Shown here: one piece after another, positions 43,088 through 54,372 of the stretch
Layout of the letters: each line of letters starts with the position of its first letter
Numbering within the stretch: position 1 is the stretch's first letter
Source of the DNA: Sulfurimonas aquatica
GTDB lineage: Bacteria; Campylobacterota; Campylobacteria; Campylobacterales; Sulfurimonadaceae
NCBI RefSeq assembly: GCF_017357825.1
Contig: NZ_CP046072.1
Span: 2,046,001-2,110,000, forward strand
Direction of reading: 5' to 3'
Length of the DNA: 64,000 bases
Program-made: the position numbers and the translations under genes
Notes under the pieces: generated by a model
What the model saw: the letters and a program-made list of their open reading frames with translations, nothing else
What the model was told of the DNA's origin: nothing
The model's database searches: none

Positions 43088-44800
43088 ATGAGTGAGGACT
43101 TACTATTATTTGAACCTGAAGATGATACTTCACCTCTAGGTGAACGCTCTTTTTGGAATATACTGATAGTAGATGATGATGCAGGGGTGCATACTTTTAC
43201 AAAGTTAGCACTGCATGATTTTTCATATGAATCAAAAGGGATAAACTTCATATCTGTTTACAGCGCGGCTGAAGCTCAAGAGTATATGGAGAAAAATAGC
43301 GATATTGCCGTAATACTTCTTGATGTTGTTATGGAGACAGACTCTTCTGGTTTAGACTTAGTTAATGTTATTAGACATAAACTTTTTAATAATTTAACTC
43401 GTATTATTATAAGAACTGGACAAGCAGGAAAAGCACCCGAACGCTATGTTATTGATCACTATGATATATCTGACTATAGAGAAAAAACGGAACTAACGGC
43501 AGATAAACTCTACACAACTATAAGAACTGCTCTATCGCAGTATCATCAACTTGCAGAATTACTAATCAAAAAAAATGAGATTTACAATACACTCATCACA
43601 GACAATTTAACACATACGGGAAATCGTACAAAACTCAACTTTGATCTAAATACAGAAAATTCTAAATCATTAGTACTTTTTAATATTGACTCATTTAGTA
43701 TGATAAATGATGTATATGGATTTGACGTTGGTGATCAGCTTCTTATGCAGTTTAAAAATCTACTCGTTAAAATTACAGACCCAAAATGGGAAGTTTATAG
43801 ACTCGAATCAGATATCTTTGCGATGCTATGCAGTAGTGATGAATCACTCCAACTCTTAGAAGAGATAAGCAGAGTCAAGGAGATTATTGCTAGTCACTAT
43901 TTTTTAATTTTTGATTCTGAATACAGAATTAACGTGACGGTATCCATAGTTCAAAATGAGACAATTAATCTCATTCAAAAGGCTGAGATCGCACTACATG
44001 AAGCAAGGAATTTAGGTAGAAACAGGATACAGGTCTACTCAGAAAATCTAAATATTCTTAAGCAGGTAGAAAAAAACACACAATGGACAAAATGGATTAA
44101 AGAAGCACTGGACAACAACAGAATAATCGCCTATTTTCAGCCAATAGTCGAGTGTAAAACTGATAAAGTTGTAAAATATGAGACTCTTGTTAGATTAGAA
44201 AAAGATGGTGTTGTCCATTCTCCTTGTGATTTTTTACCAACAGCAAGATACGCTGGTTTACTTTATCAAATCACAAAAGCTATGTTTCTACAAGCATGTA
44301 TACATTTTGAGAAAAATGAGCTCCGATTCTCTGTAAATATCACAGACCAAGATTTAGTTGAGAGTGATTTTATAAACTATATTGAAGATACAAGAGAAAA
44401 ATACTCGATATCACCAAGTAGAATATCTTTTGAGATACTTGAAGAGAGCAGCATACTAAATGACCCTACAGCCCAAAAGCACCTCCATAAACTTACAGAA
44501 CTAGGATATGGCTTAGCATTAGATGACTTTGGTGTTCAGTGTTCTAATTTTGCTCAAATAGGAGACCTTTCATTAGAGTCTATAAAAATAGATGGTATTT
44601 ATATCAAAGATATTATCGAAAACTCTTCTTCTCGAATAGTTACAGATACTATCCTCTACTTCACCAAAAAGATTGGAGTAACAACAATAGCAGAGTTTGT
44701 TCATAGTGAAGAGGTCTACAATACAATTAAAGAGATGGGAGTTGATTATGCTCAAGGATATTTTCTTGGAAAGCCTCAAGCACAATTACTTAATGAATAA
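43088..44800 (+). CDS. Response regulator with degenerate GGDEF and EAL domains
   Basis: A 570-residue cytoplasmic protein. Residues about 18-150 are a receiver domain (NILIVDDDAG with the acid pocket, ILLDVVMETDSSG with phospho-Asp, and Lys in REKTEL). A GGDEF domain follows (about 175-320) in which the signature is LESDIF, so it should not make cyclic di-GMP. The EAL domain (about 330-565) keeps ETLVR, NITDQD, EILEES, LDDFG, KIDG and QGYFLGKP, so it is predicted to cleave cyclic di-GMP. It is first of a cassette with YfiR, a histidine kinase and a TonB receptor, and overlaps the yfiR-like gene by one base. The kinase two genes later is its likely partner. Confidence 0.9.
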   Translation: MSEDLLLFEPEDDTSPLGERSFWNILIVDDDAGVHTFTKLALHDFSYESKGINFISVYSAAEAQEYMEKNSDIAVILLDVVMETDSSGLDLVNVIRHKLFNNLTRIIIRTGQAGKAPERYVIDHYDISDYREKTELTADKLYTTIRTALSQYHQLAELLIKKNEIYNTLITDNLTHTGNRTKLNFDLNTENSKSLVLFNIDSFSMINDVYGFDVGDQLLMQFKNLLVKITDPKWEVYRLESDIFAMLCSSDESLQLLEEISRVKEIIASHYFLIFDSEYRINVTVSIVQNETINLIQKAEIALHEARNLGRNRIQVYSENLNILKQVEKNTQWTKWIKEALDNNRIIAYFQPIVECKTDKVVKYETLVRLEKDGVVHSPCDFLPTARYAGLLYQITKAMFLQACIHFEKNELRFSVNITDQDLVESDFINYIEDTREKYSISPSRISFEILEESSILNDPTAQKHLHKLTELGYGLALDDFGVQCSNFAQIGDLSLESIKIDGIYIKDIIENSSSRIVTDTILYFTKKIGVTTIAEFVHSEEVYNTIKEMGVDYAQGYFLGKPQAQLLNE

Positions 44801-45312
44801 TGCTCCTTAAAGCTCTAATACTTCTAAGTTTTATCTCACTCCCTACATACCTCAATGCTATATCAGAGGATGAAATCAAACAGATATATTTAGAAAAATT
44901 CTCTATGTTTATTGAGTGGCCTCAAGACATAGAGAGATTTAATATTTGTATCTACAATGATAAAAAATTTGCCATCTCCCTGCAAGATAAGTATGAATCA
45001 AAAAAATTTAGTAACTACGACCTGAGAATTACTCCTCTCTCAATAGGTGAGCATAATATTGAATCTAAAGAGTGTAATATGCTTTATATAAGAAATACAA
45101 ACTATGCTCAAGAGATCACTTTTGTTAATAATATCTCATCAGAGAATATTTTAATCATTAGTGATAACTATGATGATATCTATCGCGGCTCTATGATTAG
45201 CTTTTATTTAAAAGATAACAAACTTAAATTTGTCATAAACAATGAAGTACTAAAAAAAGCGAGCCTTAAGGCAAGCTATAAACTCTTGAAGTTTGCTAAG
45301 GTAGTCCAATAA
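44800..45312 (+). CDS. YfiR-family (DUF4154) periplasmic protein
   Basis: A 170-residue protein with a signal peptide (cut near LNA, residue about 21), then the family pattern EDEIKQIYLEKFSMFIEWP, FNICIYNDKKF, ECNMLYIRN, ENILIISD and a closing SLKASYKLLKFAKV. YfiR binds the periplasmic sensor domain of YfiN and keeps it off; here the neighbouring protein with such a sensor is a histidine kinase. The gene overlaps the previous and the next gene by a single base each, so the three are tightly coupled. Confidence 0.88.
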   Translation: MLLKALILLSFISLPTYLNAISEDEIKQIYLEKFSMFIEWPQDIERFNICIYNDKKFAISLQDKYESKKFSNYDLRITPLSIGEHNIESKECNMLYIRNTNYAQEITFVNNISSENILIISDNYDDIYRGSMISFYLKDNKLKFVINNEVLKKASLKASYKLLKFAKVVQ

Positions 45313-46853
45313 TGCTAAAAAAACAATCAATAACTCTACAGATGCTTCTATCAGTCATGAGTATTACTATTATGATATCTATTTTCGGTATTATCTTTAA
45401 TGTTTTAAATAGTATAAACACACAAAAAAACTCCTTTATATACCAAAGTGAACTAGAAATAAAACTTATTGCAGACTTTGTTAGTGCTCCTCTCGCGTTT
45501 GGAGATACATTAGCAATTTCAGATGCATTTGCATCTCTTAAGCATAGAGAATCAATCAGATATGCCACTGTCTACTCACCAGATAAAAATGCTCTTGTAA
45601 CATTTAATCCTTACGACTATGAAGTACCTAAACAGATGCAAAAGATAGAGTCTCTTTTTATATCGGATAACCCACTAATTTTAGATTTTGGTCTTTATAA
45701 TCAAACTATACCCATAAAACAAGACGAGTCCCTTCTAGGTTATATACATATACAAAAAAAGACTCAGAGCATTACAGACTCCACTAAAGACCTTCTAGTA
45801 AAGAGTCTCATTTTTTTACTCTTAATTATTCTTCTGACCTACTTTATATCAAAATCTTTAAGTCGTAAAATACTCCACCCTATAATTCACTTAGCATCAG
45901 TAGCACATCGTGTTGCAAACTCTAAAGATTATTCAATCCGAGTAAAACATAATAAAGACAATGAGATTCAAACTCTCTACAATGCTTTTAATACTCTTTT
46001 AAAGGATACAGATTCACTCACATCGAACTTAGAGACACGCGTTCAGGAGAGAACACATGAACTTGAGCAGAGTATAGAAGCACTTAAAAGTGTACAAACC
46101 CAATTAATAGAATCAGAAAAAATGGCTTCACTTGGAAGCTTAGTGAGTGGTATAGCTCACGAAGTAAATACACCCTTGGGCAATGCTTTAACAGGGGGAT
46201 CAATCATAGTTCATGAGACGAAAGAGCTTACAAGGCAAATAAATGAAGGCACTATAAAAAAGTCTACAATGCTCAAAAGTTTAGATGTGCTTAATGAGAG
46301 TTCACAAGTACTTATGCTTAGCATAAAGAGAGCTGCAGACTTAATACGAAGTTTTAAAAAGATATCTATTGATCAAAGCGTAGAATCAAGACAGAAATTT
46401 AATCTTTACTCCTACTTAGAAGAAGTTCTATTAACCTTTCACAATAAACTAAAAAAAGTTCCTATAAAAGCAACTATAACTGGAGATAAAGAGCTAGTCG
46501 TCAACTCTTTTCCCGGAAGCTATGCTCAAATCTTTAGTAATCTCATCCAAAATACTCTTATTCATGCTTATAACAAAAATAAAAAGGATGCTAAAGTAAG
46601 TATATCTATTGTAAATAATGGAGACTCTTTCACTTTAATATATGAAGACAATGGTGATGGAATGGATGAGAGCATTATAAAAAATGCATTTGAGCCATTT
46701 AGTACAACAAGACGCAATATGGGAGGGACTGGCCTAGGTTTAAACATAGTCTATAACTTAACGACACAGAAACTTCATGGAAAAATAAAGCTAGATACAA
46801 GCCCTGATAATGGAACTAAATTTACATTTACCATACCTATATCAGAGAATTAA
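45312..46853 (+). CDS. Sensor histidine kinase with CHASE8-like periplasmic domain
   Basis: A 513-residue inner-membrane kinase. First helix at about 13-35; periplasmic domain (about 36-165) with SELEIKLIADFVSAPLAFGD, ASLKHRESIRYATVY, a pattern shared with YfiN-type CHASE8 sensors; second helix at about 166-186; HAMP (about 187-240); a short coiled coil; HisKA with His in SGIAHEVNTPLGN; HATPase with FSNLIQNTLIHAY, EDNGDGMD and GGTGLGLNIVY. All catalytic boxes are intact. With YfiR upstream, I infer that YfiR controls this kinase, which would phosphorylate the receiver-EAL protein. No DNA-binding regulator is nearby. Confidence 0.88.
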   Translation: MLKKQSITLQMLLSVMSITIMISIFGIIFNVLNSINTQKNSFIYQSELEIKLIADFVSAPLAFGDTLAISDAFASLKHRESIRYATVYSPDKNALVTFNPYDYEVPKQMQKIESLFISDNPLILDFGLYNQTIPIKQDESLLGYIHIQKKTQSITDSTKDLLVKSLIFLLLIILLTYFISKSLSRKILHPIIHLASVAHRVANSKDYSIRVKHNKDNEIQTLYNAFNTLLKDTDSLTSNLETRVQERTHELEQSIEALKSVQTQLIESEKMASLGSLVSGIAHEVNTPLGNALTGGSIIVHETKELTRQINEGTIKKSTMLKSLDVLNESSQVLMLSIKRAADLIRSFKKISIDQSVESRQKFNLYSYLEEVLLTFHNKLKKVPIKATITGDKELVVNSFPGSYAQIFSNLIQNTLIHAYNKNKKDAKVSISIVNNGDSFTLIYEDNGDGMDESIIKNAFEPFSTTRRNMGGTGLGLNIVYNLTTQKLHGKIKLDTSPDNGTKFTFTIPISEN

Positions 46854-46915
46854 TACTTATTTTATATAAGTTAAACTATTATTATATTTAATTATATACT
46901 TCTTAGGAATATTAA

Positions 46916-48895
46916 ATGAAAAAAAATCTACTTTTAACTCTATTAGCTTCCTCTGTCTTAGTAGCAAATCAACAAGATGATCTTGAGATGTTATCATTAG
47001 AAGAGTTAATGAATGTTCCTATCACAACGGTATCTAAACGCCAAGAGTCTCAACACTTAGCAGCGGGCGTAGTAACAATCATATCTGCAAGTGAAATAAA
47101 ACAGTTTGGAGCAAGACACCTTAGAGATGTTTTGGATAGAGTGGTAGGAGTGCAGGTACTAGGTTCACATCAAGATCCACATAGTAAAACATCTATGCGT
47201 GGCTTTAACTCTTCTCACCATGAAGGCCACACTCTCATCCTCTTAAATGGCCGTCCTGTTCGACAGGCTACTGATGGTGGGTTAAACAGTGACTTCTATC
47301 TCGGCTTTCCACTAAATGTCATTGATCATATAGAGGTAGTTCGTGGTCCAGGCTCTGTTATACATGGTACAAACGCAGTAGCCGGTGTTGTAAATATTAT
47401 CACTAAAAATGCTAAAGAAGCTATATCTGAAACAAGAGTTGACTTAGGTTATGGCAGCTTTAATAGAACTCAAGCTCAACTCTCTACACTTATAGGTGGA
47501 GAAGACTATAGTATTAACATAGGTGCAAACTACATAACGTCAGATGGAGATACCGTAAGTGGTATACAAGATGAGCTTGGGAATATTGGTGATTATAAAT
47601 CAGGACAGGAGAGTAAAAACATTCTAATAAGTGGTGAGTATAAACAACTCACATTTGACATAATGTATATGAGTAACCAACTCGAGAGTGCCTCTTCTGT
47701 TTTTCAACTGCCCTCAAAAGAGATAGATTTAAAACGCACCTATATTGACCTAGGTTATACGCAAAATCTATACTCTGGGTGGGACTTAGAAGTTCACTAT
47801 ACACATCAAAATGATTCTGCTGAGTGGACGATAATAGAAGCTCTAGGAGATAACCGCTCAGATGGCTCATCCCATTTAGTCGAAGCCATACTCAGAGGTA
47901 ATATATCTAGTAACTTAAACATTTTAATTGGGGCCCTGCATGCAGAGAACACTTCTGAATTTCAATTTAAGTTCCCTGGTGCTACAAAAACATCTCTACC
48001 AAAAACTACTATAACCAATACAGCCGCTTATGTACAAACTGACTATATGCTTTCATCTAAACAAAAAATCATAGCAGGGGTACAGGTAAACAAACCAAAT
48101 GATATTGAAGCAGATTTTTCATTTAGGGCTGGTTTTATTCAAGGCATAGGCGATGATACATGGCTTAAGCTTCTTTATAGTGAAGCCTATCGTTCACCAA
48201 CTATTGTAGAAACGTCTCTAAACGCTCCCGCTTTAATGGGTAATCCGCTGCTAGATCCAGAAAAAGTATATACATATGATTTACAACTTTTACACAATAC
48301 AGATAAAACATCACTAGCACTAACTCTCTACCACTCTCAACTTGAGAATCAAATAGTTAGATGGGACCATGATAATAATAGCACAACGCCATTGACTCAG
48401 AAGAATGAAGGCTACACAACTTTTAATGGAGTTGAATTTGAAGGAAGATATCAAGTCAGTAAAAAGTTAAACTTAACAGGAAACTTTAGTTACCAAGAGA
48501 ATGAAACAGATTCTGGTGTCAAACAATCTACATATGCACCTAACTATATGGCTAAAATTGGAGCGACATATAGTGGTATTAATGCAACAAACTTAAGTGT
48601 TTTTAATAGCCTAGTAGGCCCCTCTAGCAACTTAGGAGAAGTAATTGGAGATACAAGTATAAACATTAACCCTGAGGCCAAAGCTTATAATCTATTAACA
48701 GCAAATATTATGCTAGACACTGGAACTCTTTTATCTATAGGTAAACCTAAACAATCAACACTTTCTATCTACCTAGACAACCTATTAGATGAGAAAGTTT
48801 ATTCCGCTGATTTAAATTTTAGAAGTGCAAACAACACTATTCCTGCACACTGGGGTAGAGGTATTTATGCAAACTTTACATACAAGTTTCAATAA
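46916..48895 (+). CDS. TonB-dependent outer-membrane receptor
   Basis: A 659-residue protein with a signal peptide (cut after LVA). SLEELMNVPITTVSKR follows, a TonB-box-like region. The plug domain (about 50-160) has VVTIISASEIKQFGARHLRDVLDRVVGV, RGFNSSHHEGHTLILLNGRPV and IEVVRGPGSVIHGTNAVAGVVNIIT, and a 22-strand type barrel ends in an aromatic residue (YKFQ with F near the end). The substrate (metal chelate, vitamin or sugar) is unknown. It lies 62 bases after the kinase gene, same direction; co-regulation with the signalling cassette is inference. Confidence 0.9.
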   Translation: MKKNLLLTLLASSVLVANQQDDLEMLSLEELMNVPITTVSKRQESQHLAAGVVTIISASEIKQFGARHLRDVLDRVVGVQVLGSHQDPHSKTSMRGFNSSHHEGHTLILLNGRPVRQATDGGLNSDFYLGFPLNVIDHIEVVRGPGSVIHGTNAVAGVVNIITKNAKEAISETRVDLGYGSFNRTQAQLSTLIGGEDYSINIGANYITSDGDTVSGIQDELGNIGDYKSGQESKNILISGEYKQLTFDIMYMSNQLESASSVFQLPSKEIDLKRTYIDLGYTQNLYSGWDLEVHYTHQNDSAEWTIIEALGDNRSDGSSHLVEAILRGNISSNLNILIGALHAENTSEFQFKFPGATKTSLPKTTITNTAAYVQTDYMLSSKQKIIAGVQVNKPNDIEADFSFRAGFIQGIGDDTWLKLLYSEAYRSPTIVETSLNAPALMGNPLLDPEKVYTYDLQLLHNTDKTSLALTLYHSQLENQIVRWDHDNNSTTPLTQKNEGYTTFNGVEFEGRYQVSKKLNLTGNFSYQENETDSGVKQSTYAPNYMAKIGATYSGINATNLSVFNSLVGPSSNLGEVIGDTSININPEAKAYNLLTANIMLDTGTLLSIGKPKQSTLSIYLDNLLDEKVYSADLNFRSANNTIPAHWGRGIYANFTYKFQ

Positions 48896-51746: not shown

Positions 51747-52322
51747 ATGAAATGCTTAATGTGTGAGAGTTTTTCTTTCACACATATCTGCCACTCCTGT
51801 CAACAACTTTTCTTAACTCCCAAAATCTATAAACGCCGACTCTCAAACAATATAGAAGTAATCTCTTTTTACAAATATGGTGATATAAAAGATCTGCTCC
51901 ATACAAAACATACGGACTTAGGATTTTACATCTATGCTACTCTAGCAGAGCTCTCTTTTAAAAAGTTTGCTGATGAGTTTCATTTTAATGAGCCAGTCGT
52001 ATCGATTCCAATTGATGATAATATAACAAGCGGCTATTCACATACAGCTCTGATTAACAACTCTTTAAAATCTCAAAATATCAAACCGCTCTTTAACAAA
52101 CTAAGAGCTAAAAACTCCCTCTCCTACTCTGGAAAAAGCAGAGAGTTTAGGCTTCTTAATCCCAGAGATTTTGTACTAAATGATTTTAAAGAGGAGCTAG
52201 TTATTTTAGTTGATGACATTGTTACAACAGGAGCTACGCTTAGCGAAGCGGCAACAAAACTAAAGACGCAAAACAAAGAGATTCTATTTTGTCTTACGCT
52301 TTGTGACGTAAGTAAAAAGTAG
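51747..52322 (+). CDS. ComF-family phosphoribosyltransferase
   Basis: A 191-residue protein with an N-terminal Cys cluster (CLMCESFSFTHICHSC, likely zinc binding) and a C-terminal PRPP-binding loop VDDIVTTGATLSEAA. ComF proteins are linked to DNA uptake by natural transformation, though their reaction is not settled. SYSGKSREFRLLNP matches the flexible arm usual in ComF. The 3' end is 1 base from the convergent AsmA-like gene, with no obvious terminator between them. Confidence 0.83.
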   Translation: MKCLMCESFSFTHICHSCQQLFLTPKIYKRRLSNNIEVISFYKYGDIKDLLHTKHTDLGFYIYATLAELSFKKFADEFHFNEPVVSIPIDDNITSGYSHTALINNSLKSQNIKPLFNKLRAKNSLSYSGKSREFRLLNPRDFVLNDFKEELVILVDDIVTTGATLSEAATKLKTQNKEILFCLTLCDVSKK

Positions 52323-52323
52323 C

Positions 52324-54372
52324 TTAGAAAAAACCTTTTAAAAGCTTTTGTGCCTCTTTTTCAAGACCTGTTGTTCCTTTTTTCTCAAGAAATTTTTTCG
52401 CTTCACTCTCTATCGCCTTAGTTGCTTCTTTTTTTATCAACTCATTTGCATCCACATTTACCTTTGGAGATGATACATCGCCTGAGAGATATACTATAAA
52501 AGGATTTCCATTTGCGTTTATATCTATTTTAGAATCTATTATTTTACTTACAGAGTTTAGTTTTGTGTTTTGACTGACAATAGATGAACGATTGGACTTT
52601 AAATTGAGTGATGCTAGAATTTTCTCTTTATTTATATTTGCTTTTATGTCACCTTTAAAATTCTCTTTATACATATCAGTGTGAGCATACTCTTTAGCAA
52701 GATCAAGTACTTCATTTTTCGTGAACTTTCCATTTTTAACAACTCCTACAAACTCTCCCTTTGACTCTGCAAGATTATAATTTAGGTCACCATTTATAGA
52801 TGACTGAAATACTTTCGGGTAGATTAACATATCTAATATATCAATAGTTTGCATACTATATATCTTCGCCTTAAAGTCATCATTATGAAGATTTGCACTC
52901 AGTTTACCCCCTGCAACATCAGAGTTCATACTAAAGTCTAAATCTTTTGCTTTTTTAAACTCTCCATTTGCACTTATATTGCCTTTTAATTCTCTCTGCG
53001 TTATAAAAAAGAGCTTATTTAAATCATGTACATTCACTAGGTAGTCACTTTGTATGGAGTTATCCTTTAAATCTACAAGAGCGTTTTCAACATCCAAGTC
53101 TGCAAGATTTGAGTTAAAGTCAACTTTTGTATTGACTCTTTTTTTATTAAGAAGCGTTGTGGTAGTTGCGTTATATGTGGTTACTGGCATAGCAGACTCA
53201 AACTCATAAGCTTTACTTAGATATTTACTATCTAGGACACCCTTATATATTTTACTGTTTATAACGCCAGCTAGGTTATCAACATTTGCATCTTTTATGT
53301 CAACACTTAGATCAAACAAACCATCTGTATAGTGTGGTTGGTTTAGCATGTAAAGAGCAGTTTGAAGTTTCAGTCCTTTTACATTTGCTTTTACACTCTT
53401 AGGAGCAAAGTCTGAAAGTATCGCTTGAAATTGTGTGGCAGAAGAGGCTAAGTCTGTTTTTCCATTTACAACTAGCTTCTCTTTAACTCCTTTTATATCT
53501 CCATCTAACTTCAGTGCACCTCTAATATCAGCACCTGTGATTGGTTTAAGAAGTGCTAACTCTTTTATGTCTAATCCATATATCACATCCAAAGAGAGAG
53601 GCTCTGGGATTAAGTTACCACTTGAAGTGATTTTTGCTAAACTTGATTTGAGAAGATATGTATAGTCAATCTCATCACCGAGTAAAGTAGCATCAAGATT
53701 CATAGAAAATAGACTCTTTTTAGGAATGCTAACATTAAAATCTTTCTTAAAAACATCGCTATTGAGCTCTCCATTTTTTGTAATAAGCAGAATATTTCCA
53801 TCTAGTTCATGTGGTGTAATATTTTTAAAATTCAAATCAAGACTGACATCTGCTCTTGCATAAGCTTTTTGGTTGAGCATAAACAGAAGAGCTTTAAGAT
53901 CTAAATTTGCTACTTTAGTAATTATGGAAGTAGGATGAAAATCAGTAAGTTCAATGTTGTAAGTAGTTGCACTAGATGCAACATCGCTCTCTCCACTAAC
54001 TTTTATAAGTTTCATATCCCCAATAACAGTTCCGCTTGTATGAAATGAGCTTTGTAGCTGAGTTTTTGTTAATGGCTTTAATGTTTTAAGCTCCTCTAAA
54101 TTCACACTATATACTACATCAACTGATTGTGAAAAAATTGAGTAGTTCCCTTTTAGAGAAATTTTATTATTTTCATTTAATTCTAAAAGTATCTCAAAAT
54201 CACTGAGACTTAATGAAAAAATATCTAATTTACTCTCTAGTTGGGTCTCCTTACTTATTTGATTCTCTATCATTGGTTTTATGAGTTTATTTCCAAATGA
54301 TGTAAAAACAACAATATAAATTCCAACAACTAATAATGCTAATATTCCTACTAACCAAGCTAAATACTTCAT
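52324..54372 (-). CDS. AsmA/DUF748-type large envelope protein
   Basis: A 682-residue protein anchored by an N-terminal helix (about 5-25), the remainder periplasmic and beta-rich. The body contains at least two internal repeats, seen as LKTLKPLTKTQLQSSFHTSG / LALLKPITGADIRGALKLDG and VASSATTYNIELTDFHP / LASSATQFQAILSDFAP. A Lys/Glu-rich helix closes it. This layout fits the AsmA/TamB/DUF748 group of bridge-like envelope proteins that move or organise lipids; the assignment to a group member is uncertain. It diverges from grpE. Confidence 0.7.
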   Translation of the reverse strand: MKYLAWLVGILALLVVGIYIVVFTSFGNKLIKPMIENQISKETQLESKLDIFSLSLSDFEILLELNENNKISLKGNYSIFSQSVDVVYSVNLEELKTLKPLTKTQLQSSFHTSGTVIGDMKLIKVSGESDVASSATTYNIELTDFHPTSIITKVANLDLKALLFMLNQKAYARADVSLDLNFKNITPHELDGNILLITKNGELNSDVFKKDFNVSIPKKSLFSMNLDATLLGDEIDYTYLLKSSLAKITSSGNLIPEPLSLDVIYGLDIKELALLKPITGADIRGALKLDGDIKGVKEKLVVNGKTDLASSATQFQAILSDFAPKSVKANVKGLKLQTALYMLNQPHYTDGLFDLSVDIKDANVDNLAGVINSKIYKGVLDSKYLSKAYEFESAMPVTTYNATTTTLLNKKRVNTKVDFNSNLADLDVENALVDLKDNSIQSDYLVNVHDLNKLFFITQRELKGNISANGEFKKAKDLDFSMNSDVAGGKLSANLHNDDFKAKIYSMQTIDILDMLIYPKVFQSSINGDLNYNLAESKGEFVGVVKNGKFTKNEVLDLAKEYAHTDMYKENFKGDIKANINKEKILASLNLKSNRSSIVSQNTKLNSVSKIIDSKIDINANGNPFIVYLSGDVSSPKVNVDANELIKKEATKAIESEAKKFLEKKGTTGLEKEAQKLLKGFF

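Follow-up and report, generated by a model that had tools for sequence, protein, structure and literature searches.

Four adjacent genes of Sulfurimonas aquatica look like a relay that runs from an outer-membrane receptor through a YfiR-type periplasmic protein and a membrane histidine kinase to a cyclic di-GMP (c-di-GMP) phosphodiesterase. The genes lie in a stretch of 64,000 nucleotides (NCBI RefSeq assembly GCF_017357825.1, contig NZ_CP046072.1, positions 2,046,001 to 2,110,000 of the forward strand), which is called the window here and whose first letter is position 1. Labels beginning with L denote loci read in genomes, labels beginning with G denote genomes, and WIN is the window's own locus. 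The features of the locus are as follows.

43088 to 44800, + strand: response regulator with receiver, GGDEF, and EAL domains, 570 amino acids (Pfam)
44800 to 45312, + strand: YfiR/HmsC-like periplasmic protein, 170 amino acids (Pfam and fold match)
45312 to 46853, + strand: membrane histidine kinase with CHASE8, HAMP, H-box (HEVNTP), and HATPase_c, 513 amino acids (Pfam)
45486 to 45500, + strand: codons of APLAF (kinase residues 59-63) in the CHASE8 sensor, aligned with AAVVF of YfiN/DgcN
46916 to 48895, + strand: TonB-dependent receptor with plug and barrel and an N-terminal LSLEELM before the plug, 659 amino acids (Pfam)

Profile searches identify each part of the putative relay. The periplasmic protein matches DUF4154 (PF13689, YfiR/HmsC-like) at 2e-28, and the sensor of the kinase matches CHASE8 at 8e-11 with 42.5 bits, above the cut-off of 27; HAMP and HATPase_c are also matched. 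The regulator has an EAL domain (6.4e-56) and a GGDEF domain (2.5e-16) whose signature is replaced by RLESDIF and is thus degenerate. The genes overlap by one base at 44800 (regulator and YfiR) and at 45312 (YfiR and kinase), and a gap of 62 bases separates the kinase from the receptor. Sites resembling promoters are not enriched in this region (26, compared with a shuffle mean of 28.5), so the evidence for an operon comes from the gene overlaps and from their conservation and not from promoters.

The order regulator, YfiR, CHASE8 kinase is conserved in 21 genomes of the family, including that of the window. PF13689 is found in 50 of 121 genomes of the same family and in 34 of 397 genomes of a phylum sample. 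A profile made from the YfiR of this cassette matches 47 of 228 same-family genomes, and loci were read from 44 of them, those of G054, G558, and G569 being left out as partial or broken matches. The spacings in the 21 core loci range from -71 to +60 bases and are mostly between -4 and +9. Key residues are conserved as well. All 21 regulators retain nine EAL positions, which we take to be the catalytic ones, together with D30, D31, D79, T110, and K133 of the receiver. None has a GGDEF or GGEEF signature: the site reads E/D-S/A-D in 18 of them and G-I/V-DEF in the other three (L055, L058, and L070). The H-box HEVNTPL is present in all 18 core kinases that are long enough to include it. Chance or artefact was rejected as the source of the gene order, because the order and the residues recur in 21 genomes. 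The initial annotation of this stretch, made from the sequence alone, had placed these four proteins here, with an intact EAL domain beside a dead GGDEF domain, a CHASE8 sensor on the kinase, and one-base overlaps followed by a TonB receptor. Gene calls, Pfam, and the residues of the 21 regulators bear out each of these points.

The conserved unit consists of three genes, and the receptor is a frequent but non-obligatory fourth. Eleven of the 21 core loci have an intact receptor downstream of the kinase in the same orientation (WIN, L040, L041, L042, L044, L045, L047, L049, L053, L062, and L310). Three others are truncated within the kinase gene by a contig end (L055, L307, and L311), and in L311 this gene is additionally split into two frames. 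Five loci have no receptor beside the kinase (L058, L070, L305, L306, and L308); in L308 a receptor piece lies 6.5 kb away on the opposite strand. Two otherwise complete cores adjoin receptor fragments, a C-terminal one at L304:9965-10735 and an N-terminal one of 93 amino acids on the opposite strand at L309:4402-4683, a pattern that would fit decay of the receptor alongside retention of the regulator, YfiR, and kinase. Other arrangements also exist. L060 has YfiR and the kinase without regulator or receptor, and in L054 YfiR, kinase, and receptor are accompanied, in the regulator's place, by a receiver-kinase-receiver protein that is cut at the contig end. The four-gene order suggested in the initial annotation therefore holds as a three-gene core in 21 genomes, with an intact receptor in only 11. 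The two outcomes that the annotation named as refuting it did not arise, since the gene order recurs and the sensor is a CHASE8 domain in the profile search. Its interpretation is partly supported: the domains, the gene order, the intact EAL domain, and the degenerate GGDEF domain are borne out and conserved, and reversed logic with a response to cargo of the receptor would be a possibility; the receptor is not universal, however, and the pairing of YfiR with a kinase had already been published (PMC3375315).

Control of the kinase by YfiR is supported by a conserved docking residue in the sensor and by natural YfiR-kinase and YfiR-cyclase fusions. The YfiR-binding site of the YfiN sensor was mapped to the AAVVF stretch (Malone 2012, PMC3375315), and AAVVF of Escherichia coli DgcN aligns exactly at APLAF of the window kinase. 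The phenylalanine of this motif, F63, is present in all 21 core kinases. The alignment also contains seven CHASE8-like proteins near which, within 2.6 kb, no YfiR was recognised, and these serve as a control. The phenylalanine is missing from three (L037_05, L065_01, and L066_01, the last two alike at this point), and three do not cover the position. The seventh, L108_05, has it, and its locus contains a weak Pfam match to YfiR that was missed by the profile of this analysis. This control set is small, and the CHASE8 status of its members comes from that analysis's own profile. A predicted model of the kinase is best in the sensor region. Ten-residue blocks of residues 11-180 average 75 to 89 in predicted local distance difference test score (pLDDT), and the region forms a small sheet flanked by two long helices, as expected for a CHASE8/Cache-type sensor. 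Beyond the sensor the model is too weak for a fold search.

YfiR genes of other loci are associated with a wide range of outputs. In a survey of 76 YfiR genes, which were mostly picked by strong matches and are not a random sample, a TonB receptor lies within 2.6 kb on the same strand for 63, three of these having only a piece. The proteins beside YfiR include CHASE8-GGDEF, CHASE8-GGDEF-EAL, CHASE8-kinase, and CHASE8-SpoIIE (L051 and L313). YfiR is also fused directly to GGDEF (L064-L068, L104, and L105), to a kinase (L069), and to SpoIIE (L097). From these natural fusions to three kinds of output it follows that YfiR acts as an input domain. In sister loci of the family, YfiR and a receptor are accompanied by a simple CHASE8 cyclase, so the outcome at the level of the cell could equally be unreversed with respect to YfiBNR.

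The SpoIIE-type outputs take several forms. CHASE8 sensors are joined to SpoIIE-type phosphatases next to YfiR and a TonB receptor at L051:4133-5665 and L313:3935-5479. The direct YfiR-SpoIIE fusion lies at L097:6122-8035, and a receiver-SpoIIE regulator is next to a CHASE8 kinase at L101:6084-7274. SpoIIE is not among the outputs named in the passages of Malone 2012 (PMC3375315) considered here. The fusions at L064:6083-7627, L069:5807-8335, and L071:5857-8409 consist of an N-terminal YfiR, a long coiled-coil-like stretch, a membrane helix, and a GGDEF domain or hybrid kinase, the coiled coil and helix being judged by eye; all three adjoin TonB receptors. The genome of the window has two further YfiR loci. 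L033:5630-9717 has the order TonB receptor, YfiR, CHASE8 kinase, and L034:5583-11046 has a divergent YfiR-like protein, a kinase, and a GGDEF protein opposite a receptor.

One locus appears to have exchanged its input while keeping its output. L062, from a Sulfuricurvum-group genome, and L047 have regulators that are 80% identical, and three genes beyond the regulator are 88-92% identical. In the same loci the identity is 32-33% for YfiR, 34% for the kinase sensor, and 28-29% for the receptor. The most economical interpretation is an in-place exchange of YfiR, kinase, and receptor as a unit in L062, and this block divergence beside a retained regulator suggests that the locus consists of an input module and an output module.

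The receptors found near YfiR share an N-terminal segment that cannot be separated from their ancestry. No STN domain, as in FecA-type signalling, was found at the N-terminus of the window receptor among Pfam matches with E <= 1. Receptors adjacent to YfiR carry an acidic-hydrophobic segment between signal peptide and plug (SLEEL and variants; LSLEELM in the window). The pattern was chosen by eye on a discovery set, with adjacency defined as within 2.5 kb of YfiR, and there it occurs in 41 of 50 adjacent receptors compared with 3 of 58 others when residues 16-75 are scanned in both; scanning the adjacent receptors over residues 16-85 and the others over 16-75 gives 42 of 50 compared with 3 of 58. 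With the pattern fixed, it matches 9 of 12 new full-length adjacent receptors and none of 32 further non-adjacent ones, one of which (L220) has a weak YfiR at a distance of about 2 kb. A tree of 147 receptor rows, with the N-terminal residues excluded, was built with FastTree. It left out L161, L203, L220, loci L111-L120, pieces under 500 amino acids, and eleven receptors of fetched loci, among them four adjacent ones, of which L105_10, L106_02, and L107_06 lack the motif and L034_05 has it. The distribution on this tree points to a few receptor lineages tied to YfiR. As proof of YfiR docking the motif was rejected: it tracks ancestry and yields few independent pairs.

A mechanism can be proposed from these parts, and we hold it with middling confidence. 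The system would be a two-component system gated by YfiR, with an EAL output. YfiR would sit on the periplasmic CHASE8 domain of the kinase via the APLAF loop and lock the kinase in a single state of signalling. An event at the outer membrane, in the simplest case occupation of the adjacent TonB receptor by its ligand where such a receptor is present, would remove or alter YfiR. The balance of kinase autophosphorylation and phosphatase activity towards the partner receiver would then shift, and hydrolysis of c-di-GMP by the EAL domain would change in consequence. Features of a two-component pair are present, namely the H-box, the ATPase domain, and the D, T, and K residues of the receiver. Phosphotransfer from the kinase to the adjacent receiver is likely because of the operon structure and the adjacency of the genes in 21 loci, and control of the kinase by YfiR is likely because of what YfiBNR does and the conserved contacts. 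For the sign, the commitment made here is that the kinase would be off with YfiR bound. Release of YfiR would turn it on, phosphorylate the receiver, make the EAL domain more active, and lower c-di-GMP. This direction is a guess and a weak commitment, with both directions about evenly balanced.

Several observations weigh against the relay and its modular organization. The receptor is absent from five and a fragment in two of the 21 core loci, so it cannot be required everywhere. The receiver match of the regulator (Response_reg, 2.3e-6, 28.2 bits) is slightly below the cut-off of 30.2, and HisKA is only weakly matched in the kinase (0.17) although the H-box is present. The kinase model as a whole is poor, with a pLDDT of 65. 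The block divergence of L062 is a single case, and the catalytic part of its kinase, at 58% identity to that of L047, has changed too. YfiR adjacency changes only five times on the receptor tree, and for this reason the N-terminal motif is no independent evidence; an independent-pairs test gave only two supported pairs.

The sign may instead be that of YfiBNR, a possible though somewhat doubtful alternative. Release of YfiR would then raise c-di-GMP, either because the active kinase restrains the phosphodiesterase or because YfiR holds the kinase on. The family's sister loci with CHASE8-GGDEF or CHASE8-GGDEF-EAL beside YfiR and a TonB receptor favor it: if the input has retained its ecological logic, the sign must have been retained too. 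However, receiver-EAL proteins with either sign are known.

It is unlikely that YfiR itself senses redox conditions, with the TonB receptor using the output or being unrelated. This explanation draws on two cysteines, C50 and C92, that are present in all 21 core loci. In a pairwise alignment they match two cysteines of Pseudomonas aeruginosa YfiR that are 39 residues apart, the spacing of Cys71-Cys110, a bond that reducing conditions are reported to open (PMC4655355). The window YfiR lacks that protein's other, structural pair (Cys145-Cys152), and the five core loci that have no receptor beside the kinase are also in its favor. On the other hand, the cysteines may be purely structural, a receptor or piece is near 63 of the 76 surveyed YfiR genes, and YfiR and receptor diverged together in L062.

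The fold of YfiR raises one further explanation. Its predicted structure has a pLDDT of 83, and the 15 best PDB matches in Foldseek are all YfiR chains, alone or with YfiB. The next matches are substrate-binding proteins of Rhodothermus marinus (8wgl, 5.4e-6), followed more weakly by a conserved domain protein of Vibrio cholerae (3lkv, 1.0e-3) and an ABC-type binding domain (3lft, 6.4e-3). That YfiR is a small substrate-binding protein whose complex with a molecule imported by the receptor sets the kinase, on the model of NspS-MbaA, is quite improbable, since this likeness of fold is general, even though the matches and the neighboring TonB receptor would fit it.

In a broader reading, which is less likely than not, YfiR would be a general periplasmic shuttle between a specialized group of TonB-dependent receptors and inner-membrane CHASE8 enzymes, and the receptor segment (LSLEELM or variants) would compete with the APLAF loop for YfiR and so report occupancy. 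The signal would reach a kinase and phosphodiesterase in this locus, and in other loci cyclases, SpoIIE-type phosphatases, or kinases; this would be a route of outer-membrane signalling separate from the FecA/anti-sigma route. The activating signals of YfiR systems are described as an open question in Malone 2012 (PMC3375315), and the recurring receptor partner is a concrete, testable candidate for their input. With a kinase and phosphodiesterase as output, the sign of control by YfiR could be measured without involving a cyclase. Together, L062 and the variety of outputs (cyclase, cyclase-EAL, kinase, SpoIIE, and direct fusion) make the family a natural experiment in which one periplasmic input is wired to different outputs.

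The core moves within a single chromosomal neighborhood. In the window the four genes are flanked by RNase R upstream and by a ribose-phosphate pyrophosphokinase gene and LepA downstream. When the genus was searched for the pyrophosphokinase gene, 39 of 41 genomes had a match, and 30 loci were obtained. Of these, 29 are outside the window, and in 14 of them a relative of a 326-amino acid gene of the window is directly upstream of the pyrophosphokinase gene, with a gap of 62 to 549 bases; in the other 15 this relative is not seen within the stretch covered. The gene has no Pfam match and is presumably holA-like. In the window the gap between these two genes is filled by the four genes. L306 and L308, of the same genus, have a receptor-less core across lepA, beyond genes related to 51747-52322 and 52324-54372 of the window (57-64% identity in the best segments), and L306 retains the holA-like gene next to the pyrophosphokinase gene. 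Since the core of these two loci is on the other side of lepA, it has moved within one neighborhood. The receptor-less core also adjoins relatives of 52324-54372 and 51747-52322 in L305, as in L306 and L308; in the latter two, lepA and the pyrophosphokinase gene come after these relatives, the same neighborhood as in the window but on the opposite side.

Other searches gave negative results. No YfiB-like (OmpA/Pal-like) domain was found in the four genes at E <= 1 in Pfam or in seven flanking genes at E <= 1e-6, three of which lack any Pfam match; no search for YfiB covered the rest of the genome. The PADLOC defence library at 1e-6 gave no match for four large window proteins outside the four-gene locus. 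A scan of a viral collection for YfiR gave seven pattern matches with no relative among them. A literature search, limited mainly to titles and the beginnings of abstracts with most subscription papers outside its scope, found none that connects YfiR with a TonB receptor or with a dedicated receiver-EAL partner, and nothing on a receptor as stand-in for YfiB or on this four-gene assembly.

The locus is related to YfiBNR and to its divergent forms. It shares with YfiBNR (AwsXRO and TpbB; Pseudomonas and Enterobacteria) the YfiR fold and a CHASE8, periplasmic PAS-like sensor with a docking phenylalanine. In contrast to YfiBNR, the sensor belongs to a histidine kinase with a separate phosphodiesterase and does not carry an active GGDEF cyclase, and a TonB receptor is in the place of YfiB; none of the four genes is YfiB-like. 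Divergent Yfi operons, most of them lacking YfiB, have GGDEF-EAL pairs, HPT domains, sensor kinases, or MCP domains where YfiBNR has its cyclase (PMC3375315). The pairs of YfiR with a sensor kinase resemble the present locus, but TonB is not mentioned in the main text of that paper, whose supplementary operon table may list a receptor.

Three NCBIfam families describe the same kinds of protein as YfiR, kinase, and receptor: NF053591 (TOL_0243, YfiR-like), NF053592 ('YfiR-like protein-associated' kinase), and NF053590 (TOL_0244, TonB receptor). Their names and consecutive locus numbers imply that they are neighboring genes. The window proteins score below the cut-offs, with 77 bits against 125 for NF053591, 99.8 against 194 for NF053592, and 133.7 against 645 for NF053590, and the members of L033 and L042 and the receptor of L062 are likewise sub-threshold relatives. 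No phosphodiesterase is named alongside these three families. PvrR and RocR are receiver-EAL regulators in which a kinase feeds the receiver and its EAL output, and the PvrR family NF052596 matches the window regulator at 2.9e-25 (88.7 bits against 580). The window regulator differs from them in the degenerate GGDEF domain between receiver and EAL, and its kinase in the YfiR-type input. The locus is not new in kind, because sensor kinases replacing the YfiN cyclase were reported in Malone 2012 (PMC3375315) and the NCBIfam families cover proteins like the YfiR, kinase, and receptor of such loci. Overall, the pairing of YfiR with a kinase was already known in broad terms.

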